Positions 18,027-18,600 of a DNA stretch of 64,000 bases are shown piece by piece. A program made the translations under genes and the position numbers. Origin of the DNA: Halobellus clavatus (GTDB lineage Archaea > Halobacteriota > Halobacteria > Halobacteriales > Haloferacaceae); the NCBI RefSeq assembly GCF_900107195.1, contig NZ_FNPB01000013.1, positions 1-64,000 on the forward strand. The letters run 5' to 3'. Under the pieces are notes generated by a model. That model was not told the origin of the DNA. It searched no databases and was given only the letters and a program-made list of their open reading frames with translations. How positions within the stretch are numbered: position 1 is the first letter of the stretch; each line of letters begins with the position of its first letter.

Positions 18027-18062
18027 GCGGCCGCGACCTCGGGACCGAACCGCATCCTTTTT

Positions 18063-18082
18063 GATTTAGGGTTGCCTAAATC
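18063..18082. promoter_or_regulatory. DtxR-like palindrome before a small CxxC protein gene
   Basis: GATTTAGG and CCTAAATC are perfect 8-bp inverted arms around GTTG. The TTAGG...CCTAA form resembles operators of DtxR/IdeR-type metal repressors, which haloarchaea possess (Idr, SirR, TroR). It ends 3 nt before the ATG at 18086, downstream of a T-rich stretch that may be the promoter, so binding would block transcription. Confidence 0.65.
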
Positions 18083-18085
18083 GTT

Positions 18086-18256
18086 ATGATGGCCGCTGGT
18101 ACCCGCTCGCACGGCGATCCGTCGCCGGAGTCGGAGTCGCATCGGAACCCGGAGATCACCGTCTGTGAGAGTTGTCCGGGGAGATCGGTGTTTCTCGAAT
18201 CGGGGAACACCGACGGCTGGATCGCGAGCGACCTGACGATCGAGGTGCGCCGGTAG
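18086..18256 (+). CDS. Small CxxC protein, unknown function
   Basis: A 56-codon frame right after the palindrome. The N-terminal 25 residues are polar. A compact C-terminal half has CESCPGRSVFLESGNTDGW, with a CxxC pair, and ends TIEVRR. I recall very similar small proteins throughout haloarchaea but no function. The gap to the amphi-Trp gene is five bases, so they are probably an operon under the same palindrome. A single CxxC could bind metal in a dimer or act as a thiol pair. Confidence 0.7.
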   Translation: MMAAGTRSHGDPSPESESHRNPEITVCESCPGRSVFLESGNTDGWIASDLTIEVRR

Positions 18257-18261
18257 CGACG

Positions 18262-18600
18262 ATGACCGACGCAGATATCGAGGCCGACGCGGACGCCGAA
18301 GCCGACGTGGAACCCGGATCGGACGACAGGACGGAGCGCACGACGATCCGGACGGGCCGAGACTTCGAGGAGGAGTACCGCCTCGACGCCGAGGAGGCGG
18401 GTCGGTTCCTGATCGAACTGGGCGAACAGCTTCGGGACGGAGACGAGCTGACGATCGCCACCGACGAGTGGGAGCTGCCCTTCGCCTTCGGCGAACCCGT
18501 CGGGCTGGAGATCGACTTCGAGGGCGTGGGCGAGCCCGAACTGGAGATCGAACTGGAGCTGCCGGGACGCACCGACGAGACCGCGCCCGACGTCGAGTGA
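18262..18600 (+). CDS. Amphi-Trp domain protein
   Basis: Residues 30-110 match the amphi-Trp domain seen in haloarchaea and some bacteria: a helix with AGRFLIELGEQLRDGDELTI, then alternating beta strands (WELPFAFGEPVGLEIDFEG, LEIELELP). The first 30 residues are acidic. The ATG at 18262 follows the preceding small gene by 5 nt; an upstream in-frame start at 18172 would lie inside that gene and is rejected. The biochemical role of this domain is unknown. Confidence 0.82.
   Translation: MTDADIEADADAEADVEPGSDDRTERTTIRTGRDFEEEYRLDAEEAGRFLIELGEQLRDGDELTIATDEWELPFAFGEPVGLEIDFEGVGEPELEIELELPGRTDETAPDVE

Follow-up and report, generated by a model that had tools for sequence, protein, structure and literature searches.

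A 14-bp palindrome, TTAGGN4CCTAA, precedes the genes of a haloarchaeal microprotein family and is probably the operator of a DtxR-family, metal-dependent (most likely iron-dependent) repressor that is relieved in metal starvation. The first-pass annotation of the locus proposed an iron or manganese response and named in advance the absence of the palindrome upstream of homologues as grounds for rejecting that proposal; the core is found, with at most one mismatch, at 92 of 94 homologue loci versus 0.18 expected. At the level of sequence, the metal-response reading is strongly supported by the comparison of loci, sites and neighbours, which would place inside a metal response a family that occurs at 94 places in 83 of the 99 haloarchaeal genomes searched (the source genome included). 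The family appears to add a widespread new member to a type of regulon already known, and its operator geometry is notable.

The palindrome and its genes in the window

The window is the whole stretch analysed, 64,000 nt from Halobellus clavatus. The relevant features are:

18063..18082, no strand: palindrome GATTTAGG-GTTG-CCTAAATC (sequence reading)
18066..18079, no strand: core TTAGGGTTGCCTAA, 14 bp, proposed DtxR-family operator (consensus match and homologue conservation)
18058..18068, + strand: T-rich, TATA-like stretch TTTTTGATTTA (by eye; overlaps the left arm of the palindrome)
18089..18256, + strand: microprotein gene, 55 aa, stop included (ORF; start from homologue spacing)
18262..18600, + strand: amphi-Trp domain gene, 112 aa (TIGR04354 match)

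The reported layout is confirmed: the palindrome is perfect at 18063-18082 and separated by GTT from ATG 18086, which opens a microprotein ORF of 56 codons (56 aa), and five bases (18257-18261) lie between the end of this ORF at 18256 and the amphi-Trp ATG at 18262. The second ATG, at 18089 (55 aa), is the likely start, as it lies 23 nt from the first base of the site, compared to 20 nt for ATG 18086, and the spacing among homologues is mostly 22-23 nt. The TATA-like stretch, about 26 nt before ATG 18086, is taken here to fit the haloarchaeal TATA position, and the promoter is of the class with a proximal site only (below the TATA box). Next to the gene pair are icd and a gene for DUF5817, an arrangement that recurs at only one other locus (L033).

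The 16-base pattern of the palindrome, with up to three mismatches, is matched once in the window versus 0.04 expected per shuffle, and at six sites in the whole source genome versus three for the reversed pattern. In that genome, TTAGGN4CCTAA with up to one mismatch is rarer (18 matches) than its reversed control (42); thus, the loose raw count is no evidence for an operator. The exact form TTTAGGN4CCTAAA has seven matches versus none for the control in the source genome and 84 versus three over 17 genomes of the same genus.

The core TTAGGgttgCCTAA (18066-18079) is an exact match to the 14-bp DtxR/IdeR consensus of PMC8464063, where TTAGGNNNNCCTAA is proposed to replace a 19-bp consensus. 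The iron operators of Actinobacteria described there share with the haloarchaeal sites the identical consensus TTAGGNNNNCCTAA and a location at uptake-type and ferritin-type genes. The window site differs in its archaeal promoter with a TATA box, and its DtxR-family binder is putative. While the haloarchaeal sites are single 14-bp elements or two such elements 26 bp apart, the actinobacterial site is a 19-bp double-dimer site.

Conservation and position of the core around the TATA box

The homologues, which range down to 32% identity, carry within 200 nt upstream an exact TTAGGN4CCTAA (67 of 94) or a form with one mismatch (25 of 94), and two have no core with up to one mismatch in this interval; first-order Markov resampling gives, per 94 loci, 0.00 exact matches and the 0.18 above for up to one mismatch. 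In control intervals of 220 nt downstream, exact cores number zero and cores with up to one mismatch occur at one of 93 loci. Conservation is limited to the 14-bp core: among 68 exact proximal sites the outer GA..TC is not conserved, and the palindrome does not hold at its full reported length.

A second set, termed the named loci, is the best 80 of 184 from another collection and represents 74 distinct proteins. The set shares 18 protein sequences with the 94-locus set, such that the two overlap, and many of its loci are from related species and are not independent events. All but one of these best 80 of 184 loci (79 of 80) have a proximal-band or distal-band site: 41 are proximal only, 31 have both sites and seven are distal, of which one carries an additional site at -65; the remaining locus is an outlier. 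The exact motif occurs 71 times in the 4,160 positions at -60 to -9 of these best 80 of 184 loci and 33 times in 621,815 positions elsewhere in them. Row set A1 includes 60 of the 94 homologues, while row set A2 includes the window and 72 of the 80 named loci, with eight near-copies or doubtful starts left out.

The promoters fall into three classes, in which the site is below the TATA box, above the TATA box, or both. With up to one mismatch, 40 of the 94 loci are proximal only, 29 have both sites, 23 are distal only and two have neither. Of 68 exact proximal sites in the 94-locus set, 58 begin 22-23 nt before the ATG, a figure that is biased toward tight site-to-ATG spacing by the script, which takes as start the ATG that first follows the most proximal site; by eye, these sites are just below a T-rich, TATA-like stretch. 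Of 45 exact distal sites (TTAGGN4CC[AG]AA), 44 begin 45-52 nt before the ATG; by eye, they are located immediately above the TATA-like stretch, and their right half could double as a BRE. The BRE assignment at distal sites and the leaderless starts are presumptive. In 22 of 22 pairs with both sites exact, the proximal and distal sites are 26 bp apart, a site-to-site spacing toward which the script's choice of start is not biased. Proximal sites are predicted to repress when iron is plentiful, and distal sites may act otherwise. These loci provide a precise promoter rule for microprotein genes that is testable in Haloferax, and three natural promoter designs around the archaeal TATA box with which the effect of repressor position on transcription is directly testable. 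Pairs of sites 34-38 bp apart (exact or near-exact) are present at many uptake-type genes (L126:11764-11813; L172, L190, L191; G013, G004, G015), whereas the pairs at microprotein genes are 26 bp apart.

Genes that share the motif and neighbours of the microprotein gene

Exact sites of the source genome are next to two Peripla_BP_2 lipoprotein genes and one SBP_bac_6 gene, as well as genes for DUF5059, RGP and gluconate-2-dehydrogenase-subunit-3 proteins; sites with one mismatch are near a ZIP transporter gene and the second microprotein copy. The motif is at a similar distance before Peripla_BP_2 and SBP_bac_6 genes in the source genome and across the genus, and the operator appears common to presumed iron-homeostasis genes, with iron as their putative substrate. 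A further 56 sites from 13 same-genus genomes, among the matches listed, were considered, a set that excludes seven own-genome sites, seven microprotein sites, five second members of close pairs and nine sites of G008, G010 and G012. At 42 of these 56 sites (among the matches listed), a gene-like ORF starts 13-57 nt after the first TTAGG base, and 37 of 47 ORFs start at 15-27 nt. Pfam assignments for 46 of the 47 ORFs (again among the matches listed) are SBP_bac_6 (11), RGP (11), Peripla_BP_2 (9), DUF7260 (4), DUF5059 (2), DUF7551 (2) and Fe_dep_repress (1). Of the 33 exact sites elsewhere in the named loci (best 80 of 184), 19 were read and 10 proteins were scanned; these include Peripla_BP_2 proteins (three), a ferritin-like DpsA, a DtxR-family protein, a Rieske protein, an RGP protein and others. 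DtxR-family genes are downstream of the motif in L203 and L261. Peripla_BP_2, SBP_bac_6, DtxR-family and ferritin-like DpsA genes at the sites fit a metal response and favour iron. No paper that combines haloarchaea and TTAGG was found in a literature search that lay outside the primary archaeal DtxR regulon papers.

Certain other genes recur with the operator. The RGP (reversibly glycosylated polypeptide) family has no obvious metal role, and its genes repeatedly carry the operator, at 27 nt in most genus cases (L011:1519-2700, L150:1-1020, L206:123-911 and 11 of 46 genus proteins among the matches listed). In several same-genus genomes, the operator is between a DUF7260(-like) gene and a divergent zinc-alcohol-dehydrogenase-like gene (L126:7617-7632; L228, L244, L262, L264). 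Genes for Rieske-domain proteins (L133:5600-6181, L181:4492-5064) have an exact motif about 20-25 nt before the start.

The recurring neighbour of the microprotein gene is dpsA, which encodes an iron-storing mini-ferritin (NF041388, 297 bits vs. a cut-off of 170). Among the best 80 of 184 named loci, 63 have dpsA within 4 kb on the opposite strand, and at 54 the two genes are tail to tail, with stop codons -4 to 425 nt apart; an amphi-Trp gene lies between the microprotein and dpsA stops in some. With the shorter flanks of the 94-locus set, dpsA is seen at 61 loci, on the opposite strand at 60 and on the same strand at L050. The second microprotein copy of the source genome adjoins dpsA (L121; L014), and the window copy has neither dpsA nor a DtxR gene adjacent. 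The dpsA promoters have a TTAGG half at -69 to -71 in 27 of 62 cases, and TTAGG is absent from the 80 nt examined upstream in 33 of 62. Certain dpsA genes without TTAGG (e.g., L141, L138 and L147) instead have a palindrome such as TTTTTGGAAAACCAAAAA or TTTTTGAAATCAAAAA in the corresponding position, about 70 nt before the start.

DtxR-like genes are within 4 kb of the microprotein gene at 11 of the best 80 of 184 named loci, and DtxR-family genes are encoded by the source genome. On annotated plasmids, a metal-dependent regulator is next to or near the microprotein gene in four of the four regions opened, and dpsA is present in three of the four. The order is substrate-binding protein, hypothetical, metal-dependent regulator, microprotein, amphi-Trp and dpsA in Halobellus limi; regulator, microprotein (unannotated) and dpsA in Natrinema versiforme; regulator, hypothetical, microprotein and dpsA in Halostagnicola larsenii; and regulator, microprotein and ABC transporter in Haladaptatus halobius, where the annotation assigns iron to a permease of the transporter. 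In the Haloferax loci, the DtxR, microprotein and dpsA genes are consecutive. Idr of Hfx. volcanii is HVO_0538, according to PMC11349517, and the microprotein homologue of this species may be HVO_0537, a guess from gene numbering. In literature outside the primary archaeal DtxR regulon papers, no paper on HVO_0537 was found, and one was found for HVO_0536 or HVO_0538. The haloarchaeal iron regulators Idr, SirR and TroR are named in PMC11349517 and PMC6978704, and are paralleled here by the DtxR-family genes of the source genome and those beside several microprotein homologues. The FeoA-containing DtxR-family gene of the source genome has its own palindrome, TTAGAgtggTCTAA (L021:1480-1493), 21 nt before its ATG, which is perhaps an operator of a second specificity.

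Proposed mechanism and the proteins involved

The proposed mechanism takes as presumed the protein that binds, iron as its metal, the direction of the response, the leaderless start and co-transcription. When iron is sufficient, a metal-loaded repressor would occupy TTAGGN4CCTAA, between the TATA box and start codon, and block transcription. When iron is scarce, the repressor would release the operator, and the freed promoter would yield a single, probably leaderless, mRNA that encodes both the microprotein and the amphi-Trp protein, made together with metal-uptake proteins. Several observations count against this reading: the loose motif is not in excess over its reversed control, two of 94 homologues have no site, the window copy is away from dpsA and DtxR genes, the distal-only promoters (23 of 94) need another rule, and some genus sites are beside genes with no known metal link (e.g., RGP).

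The cue read by a DtxR-family protein may instead be manganese or divalent metals generally, as for MntR/SirR-like regulators, an alternative that is unlikely. In its favour, L020, L021 and the Halobellus regulator score higher against the NCBIfam MntR models than against the DtxR model, though all scores are below cut-off, and a ZIP transporter gene is near a one-mismatch site of the source genome. By contrast, the sites are found at genes for binding proteins of the Peripla_BP_2 and SBP_bac_6 types, and the best matches of the ABC genes near one site of the source genome are FecE (ATPase, 262 vs. a cut-off of 375) and BtuC/FecD. The DpsA neighbourhood also favours iron over manganese. For none of the transport proteins tested did a substrate-naming NCBIfam model score above its cut-off, and iron is thus favoured, not proven, as the metal. 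Many winged-helix proteins bind palindromes of such size, which leaves some room for a regulator outside the DtxR family. Such a binder is improbable given the exact agreement of the core with the 14-bp DtxR/IdeR consensus of PMC8464063, the occurrence of the motif before DtxR-family genes in L203 and L261, and the DtxR-like genes beside the microprotein at the 11 named loci (best 80 of 184).

That the palindrome is an AT-rich by-product of the promoter, with no regulatory meaning, is hardly credible: while the loose motif count of the source genome falls below the reversed control, the comparison already contradicts this explanation, with a core conserved at near-fixed position in diverged loci and a spacing of exactly 26 bp in all 22 pairs of exact sites. 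The short ORF could also be envisioned as a regulatory leader that sets amphi-Trp translation and encodes no protein, given the 5-nt gap between the two window ORFs. This too is very improbable, since 83 of the 94 homologues have no amphi-Trp gene behind the microprotein within the flanking DNA examined, Asn and Trp (in the context ExGNxDGWIAxD) are, besides the start Met, invariant in all 94, and pN/pS is 0.27 over 181 pairs, though these were picked for at least 70% identity.

The homologues are 46-66 aa in length (median of 55, n = 94). Of the 196 genomes of the phylum, 27 match the family profile, and every one of these belongs to the order, in which six listed genomes have no profile match. 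The initial label of "CxxC microprotein" is apt for the window protein, which has one CxxC, and not for the family: just 11 of the 94 homologues share the CxxC and 36 share its first Cys, and the 94 have no conserved cysteine column. CxxC zinc-finger microproteins are defined by a conserved pair of CxxC motifs. With CxxC in only 11 of 94, both its role as a family metal site and membership in this class are rejected. DUF7331 (PF24018), for which no paper was found, is of similar length and aligns over most of the microprotein, but none of the scores reaches the gathering cut-off (27 bits): the window protein scores 13.9 bits and six of seven relatives score 14.2-26.4 bits, with no match for the remaining relative. 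The structure model has only a beta hairpin (mean pLDDT 66.3), and the profile has no match to solved structures up to an E of 5.

Tentatively, the microprotein may, as a small factor, target DpsA or the DtxR regulator and so shift iron between storage and use. Somewhat more speculative is a broader proposal, in which the microproteins of the haloarchaeal iron regulon are partners of DpsA (or the DtxR regulator), cysteine-free, non-redox counterparts of Bfd, and the place of the operator sets the response. If so, an operator below the TATA box would lead to synthesis in iron starvation, as for uptake genes; an operator above the TATA box that overlaps the BRE would give dpsA-like synthesis in iron plenty; and two operators exactly 26 bp apart would restrict synthesis to an intermediate band of iron. 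Bfd (bacterioferritin-associated ferredoxin) binds an Fe-S cluster with four cysteines and is made in iron starvation. The microprotein is similarly small, mostly encoded beside a ferritin-type gene and predicted to be made in iron starvation; however, the family has no conserved cysteine and, thus, lacks the four of Bfd, and the putative ferritin partnership is represented here by the adjacency of the gene to dpsA.

The amphi-Trp protein scores 48.9 bits against TIGR04354 (curated cut-off of 31) but 24.1 bits against PF20068, under the cut-off of 27. Its structure model is poor (pLDDT 46.7), no match to solved structures was found up to an E of 5, and the literature search found no paper on amphi-Trp. 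The amphi-Trp gene is probably co-transcribed with the microprotein gene. It follows the microprotein gene at 11 of 94 loci, the window included, all with proximal-only promoters, and at 12 of the best 80 of 184 named loci (two in one genome). Control by the palindrome, as suggested for the window, would concern amphi-Trp in this subset of loci, behind the microprotein. Of 13 plasmid records with amphi-Trp, five regions were opened: the one with amphi-Trp beside the microprotein carries the site of the latter, and no site was found before amphi-Trp in the four from records without a microprotein match. These four stand-alone genes without a site are the ground for rejecting amphi-Trp as an independent member of the regulon. 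In Natronorubrum bangense, amphi-Trp is tail to tail with dpsA, with no microprotein.
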